A DNA stretch of 64,000 bases from Nitratireductor luteus (GTDB lineage: Bacteria; Pseudomonadota; Alphaproteobacteria; Rhizobiales; Rhizobiaceae). The notes under the pieces were generated by a model. That model was not told where the DNA came from and ran no database searches. It was given only the letters and a program-made list of their open reading frames with translations. The position numbers and the translations under genes were made by a program. Shown one piece after another: positions 43,775 through 59,179 of this stretch (position 1 is the stretch's first letter; every line of letters begins with the position of its first letter). The stretch spans positions 1-64,000 of the forward strand of contig NZ_JAOANW010000010.1 of assembly GCF_026162365.1 (NCBI RefSeq). The letters run 5' to 3'.

Positions 43775-44857
43775 ATGAATTTCGCCTCCGACAACTGGGC
43801 CGGAGCCCATCCGGCAATCAGTGCAGCCCTTCATCGTCACGCCGATGGCTTTGCGCCCGCATATGGAACAAGCGAACTCGACCGCAAGGTGGAAATGCGA
43901 TTCTGCGAGATATTTGAGCGTGAGGTCGCGGTCTTTTTTGTCGCCACCGGCACCGCCGCGAATGCGCTTTCGCTCGCCGCCGTCAACCGGCCCGGCGGAG
44001 TCGCCTTCTGCCACAACGAAGCCCATGCCCGCGAGGATGAAGGCGGCGCGCCCGAATATCTGACCGGCGGCGCACGCCTTTGCGGCATCTCCGGTGCCGA
44101 AGGCCGTATGGACCCTCAGACCCTTGAAGAAGCGATCGGTCGCTTCCCTCCCGAATTCGTCCATGCCGGCCAGCCCATGGCCGTTTCCCTGACCCAGGCC
44201 ACGGAAGTCGGCACCGTCTACAGCCTTTCCGACATTGAAGCGATCAGCGGCATTTGCCGCAATCATGCTCTTCCCCTGCACATGGATGGAGCCCGCTTCG
44301 CAAACGCGCTTGTGGCCCTGGACACCACACCGGCGGAAATGACCTGGAAGCGCGGCATCGACATCCTGTCCTTCGGCGGCACGAAGAATGGCTGCTGGTG
44401 CGCGGAGGCGATTGTCGTGATGGACCCGGAAAAGGCGCGAGACCTTCCCTTCATCCGCAAACGTGCCGCTCATCTCTTTTCCAAGAGCCGGTTTATCGCC
44501 GCCCAGTTCGACGCCTATTTCGAAAATGGCCTTTGGCTCCGAAACGCGTCTCACGCCAACGAGATGGCAAAGCGTCTGGCCGGCGCCCTGGAGGGGTCGT
44601 CCGACGCACGTCTTGCCTGGCGCCCCGGCGCAAACGAGGTGTTTGCCATTCTCTCATCGAAGGCAGTCGCTCATCTCGAGAAAAACGGCGCCCGGTTCCA
44701 TTCTTGGTCGGCTCCCAACGATGCCGCCGACAAGCCAGGCCCTGGGGAGGTACTCTGCCGGTTCGTCGCATCCTATGCCACCACGCCCGAGGAAATCCGG
44801 GAATTCGAGAAGCTCATCGGATCCATTCGCACCCCGTCCGGAAGAGTTCACGCATGA
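43775..44857 (+). CDS. Low-specificity L-threonine aldolase-like PLP enzyme
   Basis: A 360-residue pyridoxal-phosphate enzyme of the beta-eliminating lyase/threonine aldolase family, which splits threonine or allo-threonine into glycine and acetaldehyde. The start MNFASDNWAGAHP is typical. VFFVATGTAANALSL binds the cofactor phosphate, LPLHMDGARFANALVAL carries the ring-binding Asp, and the Schiff-base Lys is in LSFGGTKNGCW. The ATG at 43775 has only a weak ribosome-binding site, but homology begins exactly there. A 107-base gap with a hairpin separates it from the bufferin operon. Confidence 0.85.
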   Translation: MNFASDNWAGAHPAISAALHRHADGFAPAYGTSELDRKVEMRFCEIFEREVAVFFVATGTAANALSLAAVNRPGGVAFCHNEAHAREDEGGAPEYLTGGARLCGISGAEGRMDPQTLEEAIGRFPPEFVHAGQPMAVSLTQATEVGTVYSLSDIEAISGICRNHALPLHMDGARFANALVALDTTPAEMTWKRGIDILSFGGTKNGCWCAEAIVVMDPEKARDLPFIRKRAAHLFSKSRFIAAQFDAYFENGLWLRNASHANEMAKRLAGALEGSSDARLAWRPGANEVFAILSSKAVAHLEKNGARFHSWSAPNDAADKPGPGEVLCRFVASYATTPEEIREFEKLIGSIRTPSGRVHA

Positions 44858-44915
44858 GTGAACAAATATTCGCGTTCGATTGATTTCCAAGTGAACAGCG
44901 CCTCTGGAAAAGTTA

Positions 44916-44941
44916 TCGAGCCGGTCAACCTCCGGCTTCGA
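44916..44941 (+). promoter_or_regulatory. Hairpin upstream of bufA
   Basis: TCGAGCCGG (44916-44924) and CCGGCTTCGA (44932-44941) pair with one bulged base around a 7-base loop, followed by TTTAACC. It lies 23 bases before bufA. It could be a weak terminator for the aldolase gene, an operator, or a 5'-UTR element of the buf operon. Confidence 0.4.
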
Positions 44942-44964: not shown

Positions 44965-45288
44965 ATGTCCACAAAGAACATAGTAGGCGCGGCCTATCTG
45001 GCCAGCGTCGTTACCGCCGCTCTTGCTTCAGGTGCCGCCGCGGCCCCGTTGAGCGAGGCCGAGGCCAAGGCTGCGATGGATGCCGGCATGGAGAAATGCT
45101 ACGGTGTCTCCCTAGCTGGCCAGAATGACTGCGCCGCCGGTCCCGGCACCACCTGCGCCGGCACTTCCAAGGTCGATTATCAGGGCAACGCCTGGAAATT
45201 CGTCGATGGCGGCACCTGCACCACGGTGGAATTGCCCGGCGACCGCATGGGCTCGCCTGAGCCGCTCGACAGGGACATCCCGTCGTAA
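44965..45288 (+). CDS. bufA: DUF2282 bufferin precursor peptide (BufA1-like)
   Basis: A 107-residue precursor of a ribosomally made, post-translationally modified peptide. The hydrophobic leader/signal (about 5-27, ending AAAA/P) would export it to the periplasm. The core carries four cysteines, C45, C56, C64 and C85, in [27 protein letters not shown] and GGTCTT, the pattern of DUF2282. In characterised bufferins a MNIO enzyme turns core cysteines into thiooxazole groups and the product sequesters copper. First gene of a four-gene operon. GAGAGGAG precedes the ATG; the ATG four bases earlier is out of frame. Confidence 0.88.
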
Positions 45289-45323
45289 GGCTGAAGCTCA
45301 GAAACTGCGCCGGGAAAAAGACC

Positions 45324-46247
45324 ATGGTGAATGAACTTCCAAAAAAGCCAGCAACTCATGGCCGTTTCCCGGCATTCAACCCTATCGGTCGTGCCGGCGC
45401 CAGCTTCAAGCCGCAGCATTTGGAAGCTATCGCTGCCGAGCCCGACTCTATTGGTTTTCTTGAAGTGCATGCGGAAAACTACATGGGCGCGGGAGGACCG
45501 CCGCACGCAGCGCTCACGAAAATCCGCGAAATGCTTCCCGTGTCGCTGCATGGCGTATGCATGTCCATCGGCGGCCTTGACCCGCTGGACAAGGAACATC
45601 TGGCACGTTTCGCCGGCCTCGTCGAACGCTACGAGCCCTGCCTCGTATCGGAGCACCTTGCCTGGTCGACCCATGACGACGTCTTCTACAACGACCTCCT
45701 TCCCCTGCCTTATACGAACGAAACGCTGGCGCATGTCTGCGCGCATATAGATCAGGTGCAGGAAGCCATCGGCCGGTCGATGCTTCTGGAAAACCCGTCC
45801 ACCTACGTGCTTTTCAAGGAATCCACGTGGAAAGAGACCGACTTCCTGCGCGAGGTCGTCCGCCGCGCCGGCTGCGGACTGCTGCTCGACGTCAACAATG
45901 TCTTCGTTTCCGCCACCAATCACGGCTACAGCGCTACCGAATATCTGGCCGACTTCCCCCTTGAGCATGTCGGCGAAATCCATCTGGCCGGCCATGACGA
46001 GCAGGAAGACGATGAAGGCGCGCCGCTGCTTATCGACAGCCATGACCGACCCGTGGCAGACCCGGTCTGGACCCTCTACGAGATGGTAATCGCCAGGCAG
46101 GGACCGATCACCACACTCGTCGAATGGGACGCCGACATCCCCGACTGGCCGGTGCTCAGATCCGAGGCCATGGCTGCCGAGACGATCCTGAAACGACAAA
46201 GCATCGCGCCTGACGCAGGAAAGCGCCATGCAATCCACCTCTCATAG
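45324..46247 (+). CDS. bufB: MNIO-family peptide-modifying enzyme (DUF692, BufB)
   Basis: A 307-residue multinuclear non-heme iron oxidase with a TIM-barrel fold. Candidate metal ligands are H49 ([11 protein letters not shown]), H76 (SLHGVCMS), E110-H111 (VSEHLAWS), E156 (LLENPS), D189/N192 ([10 protein letters not shown]), H220/H224 ([12 protein letters not shown]), H240 and E267/D269 (VEWDAD). The family oxidises cysteine side chains of its partner peptide, encoded 35 bases upstream. It overlaps bufC by 20 bases. The full set of ligands suggests an active enzyme. Confidence 0.92.
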
Positions 46248-47058
46248 AGGCGACGGCGCACCGGCTGCCGCAAGAAGCTACGGCGCGGCATTCAGCGCCG
46301 CCATCCTCGACCCTGACCAGCCCAAGCCCGACCGGATAACAGGCCCACGCGGCAAAGCCGCTGACAAACGCTTCAACGTCTACCGCAACAACGTCACCTA
46401 TAGCCTCGTGACGGCGCTTGCGGAGATATTCCCCGCCGTTGCACGTCTGCTGGGCGAACACAATTTCCGCCTGGTTGCCCGCGACTTTCTGCGCGCCCAC
46501 CCGCCGCGCTCACGCATGGTCATCGAATATGGGCATGAGTTCGCCGGCTTTCTCGCAAAGCTCGAGCCGGTTCGCCATTTGAAATACCTTCCCGACCTCG
46601 CCCGTCTGGAACGCGCCTGGCTGGACGCCTATCACGCGGCCGATGCCGCGCCGCTGGCACCGGAGGAAGTCGGAACGTTGCCTCCGGAGGCCCTGGCCGG
46701 TGCGTGCTTCATTTCGCATCCAGCCGCCCGCATCGTCCGCTCCCGCTACGCCATCCACGCACTCTTCACTGCCAACCGCGGCGGAGAAATGCCCGAGCGC
46801 ATCGATGCCGGCGAGCCGGAGAGCGTGCTGATCACCCGCCCGAACTTGCAGGTGAAAGTCTACAAGCTCGCGCCCGGCCAGTTTTCGTTCATCGAAGCAC
46901 TGATGTCTGGACGGAATTTGCAGGCGGCCGCTGAAGCCGCCATCGGGAATACCCCCTCGTTCGACCTCGCTCCGGCCATCGGCCTGCTCATCGAAAGCGG
47001 AGCCTTTCACGCATGCATGGGGGCAGAGAGGAACGCGGGGGGAAAACAAAAAGGATGA
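46228..47058 (+). CDS. bufC: DUF2063 MNIO partner protein (BufC)
   Basis: A 276-residue protein of the DUF2063 family, regularly encoded after DUF692 genes. The N-terminal helical domain has [32 protein letters not shown] and [23 protein letters not shown]; the C-terminal part (about 165-265) includes [20 protein letters not shown]. In studied systems the partner recognises the precursor leader and presents it to the MNIO enzyme. The start overlaps bufB by 20 bases and the stop overlaps the DoxX gene (ATGA). Confidence 0.9.
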
Positions 47059-47666
47059 CGAGTTTGAGACCAATCGAGAAGATCGCAGGCCTGCACCACC
47101 GGGTGTTCACTGCTCTTGAGGTCGGCACGGAGCGCTGGCTGCTCGGCCTGGCGGCGCGCTTCGCCTTTCTGGCCGTACTGTATTTCTACTTCCTCAATTC
47201 AGCGCGCACCAAGGTGGGCGAAGGGCTCTTGGGCTTCTTCAATCTTTCCGACAGCGCCTACTTCCAGATCGCCCTGCCCGCGGTCGAGGCGGCCGGCTTC
47301 AACGTCTCGAACTTGGCTTTCCTACCGTGGACGCCCATCGTCTGGGCCGGCACCTACGCCGAATTCGTCCTGCCTCTGCTCATCGTCCTCGGGCTGTTCA
47401 CACGGCTCGCCGCACTCGGCATGATCGGCTTCATCGTCGTGCAGTCCATCGTCGATATCACCGTGCACAATGTCGGGGCGGAGACCGCTGGCGCCTGGTT
47501 CGACCGCTTCTCCGATGGCCTGATCTGGGATCAGCGCACGCTCTGGGCCTTCCTGCTGGCCTATCTGGTGATCAAGGGTGCCGGTTACATCTCCCTGGAC
47601 GCCCTGCTCTGCCGCTGGGTCGTGAGCCGCCAGCTTCCGGAAAAGGCTGCCGGGAGTCATATCTGA
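47055..47666 (+). CDS. DoxX-family membrane protein of the bufferin operon
   Basis: A 203-residue protein with four predicted helices, including FAFLAVLYFYFLNSA, FVLPLLIVLGLFTRLAALGMIGFIVVQS and TLWAFLLAYLVIKGAGYIS. DoxX proteins often end DUF2282/DUF692/DUF2063 operons; the role may be a quinone- or thiol-linked membrane step, but that is not proven. The ATG at 47055 overlaps the bufC stop by 4 bases; an earlier in-frame ATG at 47013 would lie deep inside bufC. A strong terminator follows 9 bases after the stop. Confidence 0.86.
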   Translation: MTSLRPIEKIAGLHHRVFTALEVGTERWLLGLAARFAFLAVLYFYFLNSARTKVGEGLLGFFNLSDSAYFQIALPAVEAAGFNVSNLAFLPWTPIVWAGTYAEFVLPLLIVLGLFTRLAALGMIGFIVVQSIVDITVHNVGAETAGAWFDRFSDGLIWDQRTLWAFLLAYLVIKGAGYISLDALLCRWVVSRQLPEKAAGSHI

Positions 47667-47674
47667 AACGACAA

Positions 47675-47704
47675 TGGCGGCGCCTGTTGCGCCGCCACTT
47701 TTCA
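47675..47704 (+). terminator. Intrinsic terminator of the bufferin operon
   Basis: A 9-bp perfect stem (TGGCGGCGC with GCGCCGCCA, 5-base loop) followed by CTTTTC, 9 bases after the DoxX stop and before the convergent hsp20 gene. Confidence 0.85.
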
Positions 47705-47742: not shown

Positions 47743-48201
47743 CTAAGCCTCGATCTGCTTGCCAGCGTCTTTGGTGGCGCTCGAGATCGGTATCTGGCGC
47801 GGCTTCATCTCCTCGGGCACGCTACGTACGAGATCGATATACAGAAGGCCGTTCTTCAGCGCGGCGCCCTTGACCTCGACATGATCGGCCAGTTGGAAGC
47901 GGCGCTCGAAGCTCCGGCCCGCGATGCCGCGATAGAGCAGTTCGGCGCCTTCGTTCTCCTGCTCCTCGCTCTTCTCGCCCTTGATCGTAAGCAGATTGCG
48001 ATGAGCCTCAACCGAGATGTCATCCTCGGAGAAGCCGGCGACGGCCATCGAGATGCGATAGGCGTCGTCACCCGTACGCTCGATATTGTAGGGCGGATAG
48101 GTCTGCCCATTGTCGGGCTGGGCAAGCGAATCGAGCATGCTGAAAAGACGGTCGAAGCCGACCGTCGAACGGTAAAGCGGGGAAAAATCGACATGACGCA
48201 T
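47743..48201 (-). CDS. hsp20: Small heat-shock protein Hsp20 (IbpA-like)
   Basis: A 152-residue alpha-crystallin-type chaperone that holds unfolding proteins. N-terminal MRHVDFSPLYRSTVGFDRLF, crystallin domain YPPYNIERTGDDAYRISMAV, AHRNLLTIKGEK, RGIAGRSFERRFQL and GLLYIDLVRSVPEE, and an I-x-I-type tail (RQIPI) are present. The ATG at 48201 has GGAGG 8 bases upstream; the longer frame (35 codons more) is the untranslated leader. An RpoH-type promoter and a ROSE-like leader precede it. Confidence 0.93.
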   Translation of the reverse strand: MRHVDFSPLYRSTVGFDRLFSMLDSLAQPDNGQTYPPYNIERTGDDAYRISMAVAGFSEDDISVEAHRNLLTIKGEKSEEQENEGAELLYRGIAGRSFERRFQLADHVEVKGAALKNGLLYIDLVRSVPEEMKPRQIPISSATKDAGKQIEA

Positions 48202-48298
48202 GGGTCTGTCCTCCATTTGAGCAACATTTGCGTTCTGATCTCGGTCGAAACCCGTTGACGGCGTTTCCAGGAGACCAACAGCCCCGTTCCGGCGGCTG
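48202..48298 (-). promoter_or_regulatory. ROSE-like RNA thermometer in the hsp20 leader
   Basis: The predicted leader of about 97 bases ends in TTGCTC-AAAT-GGAGGA just before the start codon. In ROSE elements a U-(U/C)-G-C-U segment pairs imperfectly with the AGGA of the ribosome-binding site and melts on heating. The spacing and the UUGCU motif fit. The folding was judged by eye only. Confidence 0.55.
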
Positions 48299-48304
48299 CA
48301 CAGC

Positions 48305-48335
48305 AAATTTGGGAACTCATTCTGACGGCTTCAAG
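48305..48335 (-). promoter_or_regulatory. RpoH (sigma32)-type promoter of hsp20
   Basis: On the minus strand, CTTGAA (48330-48335) and, 16 bases on, CCCAAATTT (48305-48313) resemble the heat-shock consensus CTTGAA / CCCCATnT. A start near 48298 would give a leader of about 97 bases. Confidence 0.6.
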
Positions 48336-54876: not shown

Positions 54877-56040
54877 ATGTCGTGGTGGAAACAGCTCCTC
54901 TTGGGGCTCCTCATAGTGGTTGCCGCCGCCGCCGTCTGGTACCGTTTCGTACCGGGCGCGACGGAAATCGTGGCCGGATGGGGGCTGGGTCGGGCACCGG
55001 CCGAGGCGGCGGTTTCCGACGATGGCGCAACGCGCAGCGATGGTGCACGGCGCAGCGGATCAGGCGGAACGGGAAGCGCGGTCATCGCGAGACCCGTTAC
55101 CAATGCCACGATCAACGACCGTCTTACCGCGATCGGTACCGGCAAGGCGCTCCATTCGGTCGCGGTGCGGCCTTATACTTCCGGCCGCCTCGTGGAAATT
55201 CTAGCCAGGCCAGGCGAGCCGGCAGAGGCTGGCGCGGTGATCGCGCGGCTGGATGCCGAGGCTGAGGAAATCGCACTGGATCGAGCCCAGCTTGCCCTCG
55301 ACGACGCCCAGAACCGGCTTGAGCGCATCAATGCCCTTCGGTCCTCCAACACTGTGACCGCGGTCCAGCAGACCGAAGCGGAGCTTCAGGTGCGCAACGC
55401 GGCGCTGGCATTGCGCGATGCGCAGTTGGCGCTCGAAAGACGACAGATAGTAGCTCCCATTGGGGGCATGGTGGGTATCCTGCCCGTGTCTTTGGGTGAC
55501 TATGTTACCTCCTCGACGGACATCGCCATGCTCGATGACCGTTCGCAGCTTTTGGTGGACTTCTGGGTGCCCGAGAAATATGCCCAAGCCATCACCGTGG
55601 GCGCACCGCTTGTTGCCGAATCGGTCGCCCGGCCCGGCGAGCGTTACCAGGGCAAGGTTCAGGCCATCGACAATCAGGTGGACAGCACCAGCCGCACATT
55701 GCGCATCCAGGGTCTGATCGAGAATCCCGGCGACATATTGCGTTCCGGCATGGCCTTTCAGGTGGAGATGCGGTTCGAGGGGGAAAGTTTCCCGGCCGTC
55801 GACCCCTTGTCGATCCAATGGGGCAGCGACGGCGCCTATGTCTGGGTCGTTCGCAACGGCATCGCCCAAAGGACACCCGTGCGCATAATCCAACGCAATG
55901 CCGACACCGTGCTTGTCGACGGCACCTTCAGCAATGGCGACCAGGTGGTCACGGAGGGCGTGCATTCGGTTCGCGACGGCCAGCAGGTGATGGTCGCCGG
56001 CGACGAAGCCCGCAACGGCAATGCCGGCCGCGGTTCGTGA
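54877..56040 (+). CDS. RND efflux periplasmic adaptor subunit
   Basis: A 387-residue membrane-fusion protein. An N-terminal membrane anchor (about 6-24) is followed by a polar spacer, a lipoyl-like half (SGRLVEILARPGEPAEAGAV), an alpha-helical hairpin (about 125-185, LDRAQLALDDAQNRLERINALR), the second lipoyl half (RRQIVAPIGGMVGILPVSLGD) and beta-barrel domains. It links an inner-membrane RND pump to an outer-membrane channel. No lipobox. The pump gene starts 16 bases after its stop. The substrate is unknown. Confidence 0.9.
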   Translation: MSWWKQLLLGLLIVVAAAAVWYRFVPGATEIVAGWGLGRAPAEAAVSDDGATRSDGARRSGSGGTGSAVIARPVTNATINDRLTAIGTGKALHSVAVRPYTSGRLVEILARPGEPAEAGAVIARLDAEAEEIALDRAQLALDDAQNRLERINALRSSNTVTAVQQTEAELQVRNAALALRDAQLALERRQIVAPIGGMVGILPVSLGDYVTSSTDIAMLDDRSQLLVDFWVPEKYAQAITVGAPLVAESVARPGERYQGKVQAIDNQVDSTSRTLRIQGLIENPGDILRSGMAFQVEMRFEGESFPAVDPLSIQWGSDGAYVWVVRNGIAQRTPVRIIQRNADTVLVDGTFSNGDQVVTEGVHSVRDGQQVMVAGDEARNGNAGRGS

Positions 56041-56056
56041 CGGAGCGCCGAATCCG

Positions 56057-59000
56057 ATGAGCAAAGAGACCATTTCCGATACCGCAGCGGGAAGCACGGC
56101 GCTGTTCGTTCGCCGCCCCGTTCTGGCTTTCGTTTTCAACATGCTGATCGCCGTCGCGGGACTTGCCGCACTGTACGGGGTCGAGGTTCGGGAACTGCCG
56201 GACGTGGACCGTCCCGTCATCTCCATCAGCACAAACTTCGACGGAGCGGCGGCCGAGACCATCGACCGCGAGATCACCACCTTCATCGAAGGCGCGGTCG
56301 CCCGCGTCCCCGGCGTGACCGCCATTTCCTCTTCATCGTCATTCGGCAGGAGCCGCGTAACGGTGGAATTCAGCGAAAGGGTCAACCTCGACACGGCCGC
56401 ATCGGATATCCGCGACGCCGTCGGCCGTATCCAGAACCAGCTCCCCGACGACGCCGAAACCCCCACCGTGGTGAAGGCGGACGAGAATTCCGATGCCGTC
56501 ATGCGTATCGCCGTCGTCTCCGAAAACATGTCGATCGAGGACATGACCTTGTTCGTCGACGACGAGATCGTCGACAAGTTGGCCGCCGTTCCCGGCGTCG
56601 CCGACGTGCAGGTCTATGGCGACCGCAACAAGATATTCCGCGTCGATGTCGACCAGACCCGTCTCGCCAGCAAGGGCTTCACCATTGGCGGTATCGGCAC
56701 CGCGCTCGCCGACGTCGCCTTCGACACGCCCGCCGGCTCGCTCTCCAGCAATACCCAGGAACTGATCGTTCGCGCCTCGGCCACGGTACGGACATCGGAG
56801 GATTTCGAGAACATCCAATTGGCGAGGAATGTCCGCCTCGGCGATGTCGCCACCGTAACGCTCGGGCCGGACCTCGGCGAAAGCCGGCTCCGCGCCAACG
56901 GGAGCCCGGGCATCGGCCTCGGCATCATCCGACAGGCGCAGTCCAATACGCTCGACATATCGCAGGGCGTGCGCGCGGCGGTGGACGCCCTCCAGCCAAC
57001 TCTTCCCGAGGGCATGTCGGTCTCGGTTTCCAGCGACGACGCCACCTTCATCAAGGGAGCGATCAGCGAGGTCGAAATCGCCCTGGGCATTTCGGTGACC
57101 GTCGTTCTCCTGGTGATCTATCTTTTCCTCAGGGATATCCGCGCGACGATCATCCCCGGCGTCGCTATCCCTGTGGCGCTGATCGGCACCGTGGCCGCCA
57201 TCTATCTCGTCGGCTTTTCCATAAACATCCTGACGCTGCTGGCCCTGGTGCTGGCGACGGGGTTGGTCGTCGACGACGCCATCGTTGTCCTGGAAAACAT
57301 CGTACGGCGGCGCAACATGGGAATGGGGCCACGCGCGGCGGCTGTTCTGGGAACCAAGGAAGTGTTTTTCGCCGTCGTGGCGACCACCGCGACGCTGGTT
57401 GCCGTGTTCGTTCCGCTCTCCTTCCTGCCGGGTCAGGCGGGCGGGCTCTTCCGCGAATTCGGCTTCGTGCTCGCGATCTCGGTCTTTCTGTCCTCCATCG
57501 TTGCCCTGTCGCTATGCCCCATGATTGCATCGCGCGTGCTGGCGAGCGGCGACACCCATGATGCCCGTCCGAACAGTCCGCTCGGCTGGCTCGGCGGGAA
57601 GCTGACGAACCTTTATGCCCGCACGCTCCACTTCAGCCTCGATGCGCCAGCCATCATCCTGCTCGTGTCAGTGCTCTTCGCCGGCACCGCCTTCAGCCTC
57701 TACGGAACGATCAAGAACGAGCTGACGCCGACCGAGGACCGCTCGCTGGCCTTCATGCGCGTCTCCGCTCCGCAGGGCGTCAGCCTCGATTATCTCGCCG
57801 ATCAGATGCGTCATGTGGAAACCCTGCTCATGCCGCTGCGCGAGCGCGGCGATATCCGCGGCACATTCTCCATCATTGGACGAGGCAGCTCCAACAGCGG
57901 CTTCCTGGTTCTTCGCCTTGCGCCATGGGAAGAGCGCGAACGGAGCCAACAGGAAATATTGGACGAAGTGAACGCGCTTGCGCGCCAGGTGCCGGGCGTT
58001 CGCGCCTTCGCCTTCCAGCCGAACAGCCTCGGCATCCGCGGCTCGGGAAGCGGGCTCCAATTCGCCGTGGCCGGTTCGAATTACGAGAGGCTGACGGAAG
58101 CGGCCACCAACATCGTCGCTGAAATGGAGAAGGATCCGCGCTTCCGGCAGCCTCGCCTCTCCCAGGACATTACCCAGCCGCAACTGCACGTCGAAATCGA
58201 TCGCCGCCGCGCGTCCGATCTCGGCATTGACATTAACGGTCTCGGCCCCTCCATCCAGGCACTGCTCGACGGCCGCAAGATCGGCACCGTTTTCCTCGGC
58301 GACAAGAGTATCGACATAAAGCTCCTGTCGACGACCAATCCGGTCAACGACCCGACCGACCTGGAGAGCATTTTCGTCAAGACCGGCGACGGGCGTTTCG
58401 TGCCGCTGGCCACCATAACATCGCTCGATGAACAGGCGGTTCCGCCTTCGCTCTCGCGCGAGCAGCAGACACGTGTCGTTGCCGTCACCTCCGCACTCGC
58501 CGACGATTTCGCGCTGGGCGAGGCCCTTGCCGTCGCGCAGGAGATCGCCGCGCCGCATCTGCCGGAGGGGAGCCGTATCATCCCGCTGGCCGAAGCCGCC
58601 TCGCTTGGCGAAACCGCCAACAGCATGTTCACGATCTTCGGTTTCGCCATCGTCATTATCCTGCTTGTTCTGGCCGCCCAGTTCGAGAGCTTCGTCAGCG
58701 CTCTCATCATCATGGCAACGGTTCCGCTCGGGCTTGCCTGCGCAGTTTTCGCGCTGATCCTCACGGGTACCAGCCTCAATGTCTACAGTCAGATCGGGCT
58801 TGTGCTCCTCGTCGGCATCATGGCCAAGAACGGCATCCTGATTGTCGAGTTCGCAAACCAGCTCCGTGACCGCGGGCTTGGCGTGCGCGAAGCCATTGAG
58901 CAGGCCTCGCTGATCCGCCTGCGTCCGGTAGCGATGACCATGATCTGTACCGTAGTGGGCGGCCTGCCGCTCGTGCTGGCCAGCGGTGCCGGGGCCGAGG

Positions 59001-59179
59001 CACGCATTGCGCTTGGCTGGGTGATCGTCGGCGGCCTGGGGCTTTCGGCCCTGTCGACACTCTACCTGACGCCGGTGGCTTACCTGCTTCTGGGGCGTTT
59101 CATTACCCCGAAGGTGGAGGAGGAAGCCCGTCTCGAACGTGAATTGACCCACGCCGCGGACGCTTCACGTTCGCACTGA
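56057..59179 (+). CDS. RND-family efflux pump (AcrB/MexF type)
   Basis: A 1040-residue proton-driven exporter with the usual twelve-helix, two-large-loop architecture. FVRRPVLAFVFNMLIAVAGL is the first helix, GLVVDDAIVVLENI is the signature with the proton-relay Asp pair in helix 4, and VGIMAKNGILIVEFANQLRD and RLRPVAMTMICTVVGGLPLV are in the second half. Porter and docking domains follow each half's first helix. The ATG at 56057 (MSKETISD) follows GGAGC and lies 16 bases after the adaptor gene. No outer-membrane channel gene is adjacent. Confidence 0.92.
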   Translation: MSKETISDTAAGSTALFVRRPVLAFVFNMLIAVAGLAALYGVEVRELPDVDRPVISISTNFDGAAAETIDREITTFIEGAVARVPGVTAISSSSSFGRSRVTVEFSERVNLDTAASDIRDAVGRIQNQLPDDAETPTVVKADENSDAVMRIAVVSENMSIEDMTLFVDDEIVDKLAAVPGVADVQVYGDRNKIFRVDVDQTRLASKGFTIGGIGTALADVAFDTPAGSLSSNTQELIVRASATVRTSEDFENIQLARNVRLGDVATVTLGPDLGESRLRANGSPGIGLGIIRQAQSNTLDISQGVRAAVDALQPTLPEGMSVSVSSDDATFIKGAISEVEIALGISVTVVLLVIYLFLRDIRATIIPGVAIPVALIGTVAAIYLVGFSINILTLLALVLATGLVVDDAIVVLENIVRRRNMGMGPRAAAVLGTKEVFFAVVATTATLVAVFVPLSFLPGQAGGLFREFGFVLAISVFLSSIVALSLCPMIASRVLASGDTHDARPNSPLGWLGGKLTNLYARTLHFSLDAPAIILLVSVLFAGTAFSLYGTIKNELTPTEDRSLAFMRVSAPQGVSLDYLADQMRHVETLLMPLRERGDIRGTFSIIGRGSSNSGFLVLRLAPWEERERSQQEILDEVNALARQVPGVRAFAFQPNSLGIRGSGSGLQFAVAGSNYERLTEAATNIVAEMEKDPRFRQPRLSQDITQPQLHVEIDRRRASDLGIDINGLGPSIQALLDGRKIGTVFLGDKSIDIKLLSTTNPVNDPTDLESIFVKTGDGRFVPLATITSLDEQAVPPSLSREQQTRVVAVTSALADDFALGEALAVAQEIAAPHLPEGSRIIPLAEAASLGETANSMFTIFGFAIVIILLVLAAQFESFVSALIIMATVPLGLACAVFALILTGTSLNVYSQIGLVLLVGIMAKNGILIVEFANQLRDRGLGVREAIEQASLIRLRPVAMTMICTVVGGLPLVLASGAGAEARIALGWVIVGGLGLSALSTLYLTPVAYLLLGRFITPKVEEEARLERELTHAADASRSH

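Follow-up and report, generated by a model that had tools for sequence, protein, structure and literature searches.

A Buf1-type bufferin operon of Nitratireductor luteus whose control probably differs from sigmaF-NrsF

How a bufferin operon is controlled when no copper regulator and no extracytoplasmic function (ECF) sigma factor adjoins it is the question raised by bufA-bufB-bufC-doxX, four genes within the 64,000-nucleotide stretch of Nitratireductor luteus DNA analysed here (contig NZ_JAOANW010000010.1; the window). Among MNIO-made peptides, bufferins are described in excerpts of PMC12452194 as forming the largest families, and in the portions of the literature examined sigmaF-NrsF is their sole worked-out control. 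The answer favoured here, at a probability of about 0.83, is that the locus is a Buf1 bufferin operon under control other than sigmaF-NrsF, with a putative regulator at an upstream palindrome, a TTGATTTCC promoter and a leader stem-loop. The gene content is known, and sequence comparison supports viewing the control region as an apparently undescribed variant; no description of it was found in the literature, in searches that tested this absence weakly, several of them being poorly targeted.

All conserved control elements lie upstream of positions 44965-47704, outside the interval covered by an earlier reading of the same DNA made from its letters alone (the sequence-only reading). They are the following.

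44848-44861, forward strand: candidate operator, the palindrome TCACGCATGAGTGA (TCAC-N6-GTGA), which overlaps the stop codon of an upstream aldolase-like gene
44880-44894, forward strand: class M promoter element, the 15-mer TTGATTTCCAAGTGA, present with up to 3 mismatches in 44/171 bufA loci (shuffles, 0.8 loci)
44908-44913, forward strand: putative -10, at columns 28-33 after the element start in a column profile of 24 non-redundant loci
44919-44937, forward strand: stem-loop in the 5' leader, AGCCGG-TCAACCT-CCGGCT, close to the predicted transcript start, identified by fixed position and arm-pairing tests

Comparison of upstream DNA places the 15-mer 85 nt before bufA and the palindrome 32 nt upstream of the 15-mer. 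In the column profile, A occupies column 29 in 97 % and T column 33 in 65 % of class M loci, bases that would fit a -10 and a transcript start near column 40. The best match upstream of bufA to the sigmaF promoter (GTAACC-N16-CGAA) has three mismatches, which is the level of shuffled sequence, and a search of the whole genome for NrsF (PF06532) found none, the Caulobacter control being positive. With NrsF absent, no sigmaF promoter and a different conserved control region in place, the suggestion of the sequence-only reading that control may differ from that of Caulobacter is supported. Its statement that the operon has neither a copper regulator nor an ECF sigma factor beside it also held, for the two direct neighbours and for ten flanking open reading frames (34.2-56.0 kb, one without a match), a scan that takes in part of the flanking genes.

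The wider comparison rests on an anchor-based locus set, in which 199 hits were reduced to 171 by removal of identical 310-nt keys. It supersedes a first table of 113 loci, which omitted duplicates and loci without an acceptable start codon; the neighbour analysis, the column profile and early element comparisons rest on that smaller set. Set A holds 102 entries, namely own-profile matches in stretches around 101 DUF2282 matches, and set B holds 69 entries that remained after duplicate removal from the 80 nearest BufB loci and is biased to close kin. Besides the 44 class M loci, 17 of which carry the 15-mer exactly, 72/171 are class S, in which GTAAC and CGAA both occur without mismatch at the sigmaF spacing (0.2 in shuffled sequence; consensus from excerpts of PMC3511200), and no locus of the 171 has both promoter types. 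In set A, NrsF is missing from the genomes of 32/34 class M loci and present in those of 22/22 class S loci (Fisher p 1.3e-13, without correction for kinship). Across 151 genomes, including that of the window, DUF2282 was matched in 86, MNIO in 87 and NrsF in 42, with 40 of the 42 above the NrsF cut-off. Only 25/101 DUF2282 matches lie within 6 kb of NrsF, mostly at about 1.24 kb and divergent; as the other 76 do not, most bufferin precursor genes in this sample have no NrsF beside them. Class S operons are mostly from Hyphomicrobiales. A further 30 wider-class loci, the best-scoring from 100 genomes with a match and not a random sample, comprise 8 S, 2 M and 20 with neither promoter.

When the 15-mer was used to look for a regulon, the genome of the window gave six sites with at most one mismatch (1 in the reversed control), and the window site is its only exact TTGATTTCCANNTGA. 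In the 151 genomes exact sites number 28, with a single one in the reversed control; 17 of the 28 lie at bufA by coordinates, and inspection by eye showed none of the other 11 to have a palindrome 31 nt upstream. A rival view is that a sigmaF-type ECF factor encoded elsewhere controls the operon through a degenerate promoter, as in Caulobacter. No search aimed at ECF sigma genes was made in the genome, and GTAAC-CGAA promoters precede bufA also where NrsF is not adjacent, both of which leave some room for such control; nevertheless, it is very improbable given a genome devoid of NrsF, a best promoter match no better than shuffled sequence, and another conserved element in the place that the sigmaF promoter would take.

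The palindrome is the feature common to the two promoter classes. TCAC-N6-GTGA is enriched at spacer 6 and not at spacers of 2-5 or 7-12. A search of the 100 nt upstream of the promoter element, allowing up to 1 mismatch in 8, finds at least one copy in 39/44 class M and 68/72 class S loci, giving 50 copies in M versus 1.3 in shuffled sequence and 74 in S versus 2.5. It stands 24-26 nt before GTAAC in 61/72 class S loci (control windows, 0/288) and 31/32 nt before TTGATTTCC in 28/44 class M loci (control windows, 1/176). The 50 class M copies fall at 31/32 nt (28), 42/43 nt (13), 63/64 nt (4), 74/75 nt (2) and elsewhere (3), and the exact copies at 31 nt (11), 32 nt (4) and 42 nt (2); judged by spacing, without a formal periodicity test, these positions are one or more helical turns apart. 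Exact palindromes also occur in 15/55 loci of neither class and, by eye, about 42 nt upstream in both wider-class M loci. The combination of palindrome and sigmaF promoter occurs 14 times in the 151 genomes versus 3 times in the reversed control, with bufA accounting for 12 of the 14.

Binding positions that move upstream in helical steps are more typical of activators. That pattern, here at 31, 42, 63 and 74 nt, speaks against TTGATTTCC and the palindrome forming one compound site of a single repressor rather than an activator site and a promoter, as does the class S arrangement, where the promoter 25/26 nt beyond the palindrome is an unrelated one. Because TGATTTCCAAGTGA by eye retains the GTGA half of the palindrome, about 32 bp away, the compound site keeps a real, if minority, share of the probability. 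Two sets of sites away from bufA were also seen. At 1500-1560 of locus L244, a palindrome and a TTGATTTG-like sequence, spaced 36 nt and not 31/32 nt apart, precede a ynjB-like transporter gene and adjoin a GntR/UTRA-like regulator gene (gene names by eye). Near 1500 of L187 and L188, a palindrome and a sigmaF-type promoter precede membrane-protein and secreted-protein genes, two sites versus three in the control.

Downstream of both kinds of promoter, a stem-loop is found at a fixed position. The best stem in the stretch from promoter to start codon began 36-44 nt after the element start in 36/44 class M loci, against 6.8 expected, and for class S at 31-39 nt in 51/72 loci, against 10.4 expected; both position ranges were fixed after a first look. 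Arms from the same locus pair better than arms swapped between loci, with values of 15.46 versus 13.15 for 37 non-redundant class M loci and 16.53 versus 12.40 for 49 non-redundant class S loci, and 0/10000 permutations in each class did as well; the corresponding figure for a first and smaller M set was 23/2000. The leader stem-loop thus covaries in both classes. No Rfam family covers the leader; a U4 match there (E 0.43) was taken as chance. A hairpin at the extreme 5' end is a known mRNA stabiliser of the ompA type.

The neighbourhood bears on the gain or loss of the control region. In the smaller locus set, class M loci have the aldolase-like gene upstream in 28/32, gltB in 25/32 and hsp20 in 25/32, and class S loci have these neighbours in 0/59; more than 8 kb of DNA was available in 25 M and 53 S loci, the shorter ones being blind to distant neighbours. 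All 16/16 genomes of the genus match the aldolase-like protein, bufA being present in 7/16 and lacking in 9. In 8/9 genomes without bufA, an hsp20 match follows the aldolase match by 77-234 nt, and both bufB and the 15-mer are missing; the ninth genome shows no hsp20 and no bufB within the 1.5 kb of DNA examined. Where bufA is present, bufB is within 1.5 kb in 5/7 genomes and further off in two (G001 and G003). Since the empty sites are without bufB and the 15-mer, the unit of gain or loss looks like the operon together with its control region.

Under the preferred reading, expression would not run via sigmaF-NrsF; a putative DNA-binding protein, more likely an activator, would bind one face of the helix at TCAC-N6-GTGA, upstream of the TTGATTTCC promoter, and the transcript would begin at the stem-loop, which probably stabilises it. 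The best reading of the shared palindrome is that the putative regulator of this operon may also serve sigmaF-type operons. Evidence tips slightly towards a broader proposal, that an undescribed factor acts on Hyphomicrobiales bufferin operons at TCACG-N4-CGTGA, in helical register, before a sigmaF promoter or, where sigmaF-NrsF is lacking, a TTGATTTCC promoter, with an mRNA that opens with a conserved stabilising stem-loop. If so, the periplasmic copper sensor would be, or would include, that factor and not NrsF alone. An operator common to operons with and without sigmaF would offer a direct handle on how bacteria decide to make metal buffers, and exchange of the promoter with the operator kept would illustrate regulatory rewiring cleanly.

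Several results weigh against this picture. Because 28/32 share the upstream aldolase-like gene, the class M loci are largely orthologous, and their counts are not independent events. Neither promoter class fits 55/171 loci; in set A, 34/46 unclassified loci are in genomes without NrsF (12/46 are in genomes with it), and two class M loci, from G001 and G139, are in NrsF-bearing genomes. The exact palindrome stands at 25 nt in 0/8 wider-class S loci. No regulon emerged from a search of the genome of the window for TCACG-N5-GTGA: the reversed control yielded 12 strand hits and the motif 18, at 14 places, the majority of which fall within long open frames, the L244 site being another of the 14. 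A simple promoter scan upstream of bufA found no sigma70-like promoter, and no regulator gene was recognised among the direct neighbours and ten flanking open reading frames; nor was one recognised among conserved neighbours in the 25 largest clusters, viewed without profile annotation. For the leader, to the post hoc position ranges must be added that RNAalifold on MAFFT alignments gave no consensus structure for class M or S, that approach being replaced by the fixed-position and arm-permutation tests.

The genes served by this control region, with the hairpin that follows them, are laid out as listed.

44965-45288, forward strand: bufA, DUF2282 bufferin precursor of 107 amino acids, from the open reading frame call and a profile match
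45324-46247, forward strand: bufB, MNIO enzyme of 307 amino acids, bufferin maturase
46228-47058, forward strand: bufC, DUF2063-type partner protein, PME type 1 fold
47055-47666, forward strand: doxX, membrane protein, alternative start 47013
47675-47697, forward strand: intrinsic-terminator-like hairpin between doxX and a convergent hsp20 gene

Open reading frames, domain matches and the hairpin agree with the proposal of the sequence-only reading that a complete operon with its own terminator lies here, and its assignment to the bufferin type is supported by the match of BufB to a curated equivalog and by the fold of BufC. BufA is, as that reading held, a DUF2282 precursor (PF10048, 84.6 bits) with four cysteines, at positions 45, 56, 64 and 85, a spacing of 11/8/21 shared with 153/171 loci; its N-terminus, read from the sequence without a predictor, is signal-peptide-like, with a hydrophobic stretch and an Ala-rich end, and no relatives of BufA were found among PDB sequences. 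BufB (PF05114, 352 bits) passes the bufferin maturase model NF050167 MNIO_BufB at 383.5 bits (cut-off 310), and the expected metal ligands are there: the ligand-type residues are invariant across 31 chosen homologues and align with 3bww. BufC (PF09836, 86.9 bits) is a DUF2063 partner protein with an RRE-type domain, as in the Buf1 cluster, its relatives being detected by fold alone and none among PDB sequences. DoxX matches PF07681 at 28.6 bits (cut-off 23.6) and falls short of the NCBIfam HvfX model (20.1 bits; cut-off 80). These matches support an ordinary Buf1 bufferin cluster, a member of a known family. The claimed packing with overlaps holds for bufB/bufC (20 nt) and for bufC/doxX (4 nt, ATGA, if doxX starts at 47055), but bufA and bufB are separated by 35 nt; 47055 is the more likely doxX start, because the homologous region begins near 47084. 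The terminator has a perfect stem of 9 pairs and a fitting position after doxX but a modest T tail, and a 3.5 kb scan gave 5 terminator-like sites against a mean of 3.4 in shuffles, so that the description 'strong' depends on stem and position.

By analogy with characterised relatives, BufA would be made with a Sec-type signal, BufB and its partner BufC would oxidise C56 and C64 to thiooxazoles, the mature peptide would be exported to sequester excess periplasmic copper, and DoxX would be an accessory membrane protein. C56 and C64 are the central two of the four cysteines, the pair modified in bufferins according to excerpts of PMC12452194. Copper is probably the function, as judged from the family, since the characterised bufferins and captophorins in the available parts of PMC12452194 and PMC13097082 bind copper; it is unlikely that the peptide instead buffers another metal or stress (gold, cadmium, chromate, oxidative or sulphur stress), even with Caulobacter sigmaF responding to chromium and cadmium (excerpts of PMC3511200) and MerC fusions and a possible gold link under discussion (excerpts of PMC12452194).

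Beyond the operon, the convergent hsp20 gene (47743-48306, reverse strand) matches PF00011 at 73.1 bits, with the IbpA model below cut-off. An mmgR/suhB small RNA match (RF00519; 50431-50510, forward strand; 55.9 bits, cut-off 41) lies about 2.8 kb downstream of doxX, followed by a tRNA gene (RF00005; 52107-52178, forward strand; 68.7 bits). A resistance-nodulation-division efflux adaptor and permease occupy 54877-59179 (forward strand); the adaptor passes TIGR01730, and for the permease multidrug models outscore CusA/CzcA, no model's cut-off being reached.

Among known systems, methanobactin (MbnABC) shares the MNIO family PF05114, whereas the window operon has a DUF2063-type partner and a signal-peptide-like precursor, and BufB scores 53.2 bits against the 325 needed for the MbnB model TIGR04159. 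The EGKCG captophorins oxazolin, fontiphorin and gonophorin are alike in MNIO enzyme, DUF2063-type partner and thiooxazole chemistry (excerpts of PMC13097082) but have a repeated EGKCG precursor; BufA has no EGKCG motif, and BufB reaches 230.9 bits where the HvfB model NF003818 needs 360. The Caulobacter Buf1 operon and other DUF2282 clusters share the four-cysteine precursor, MNIO enzyme, DUF2063 partner and DoxX; relative to Caulobacter Buf1, whose DNA itself was not compared, the genome here is without NrsF, TTGATTTCC replaces GTAACC-N16-CGAA, and a palindrome lies upstream. Closest in design are the class S bufferin operons, which have the same genes, upstream palindrome and 5'-leader hairpin and differ in their GTAAC-CGAA promoter, in the presence of NrsF in all 22 sampled genomes, and in a palindrome at 25/26 nt rather than mostly 31/32 nt.
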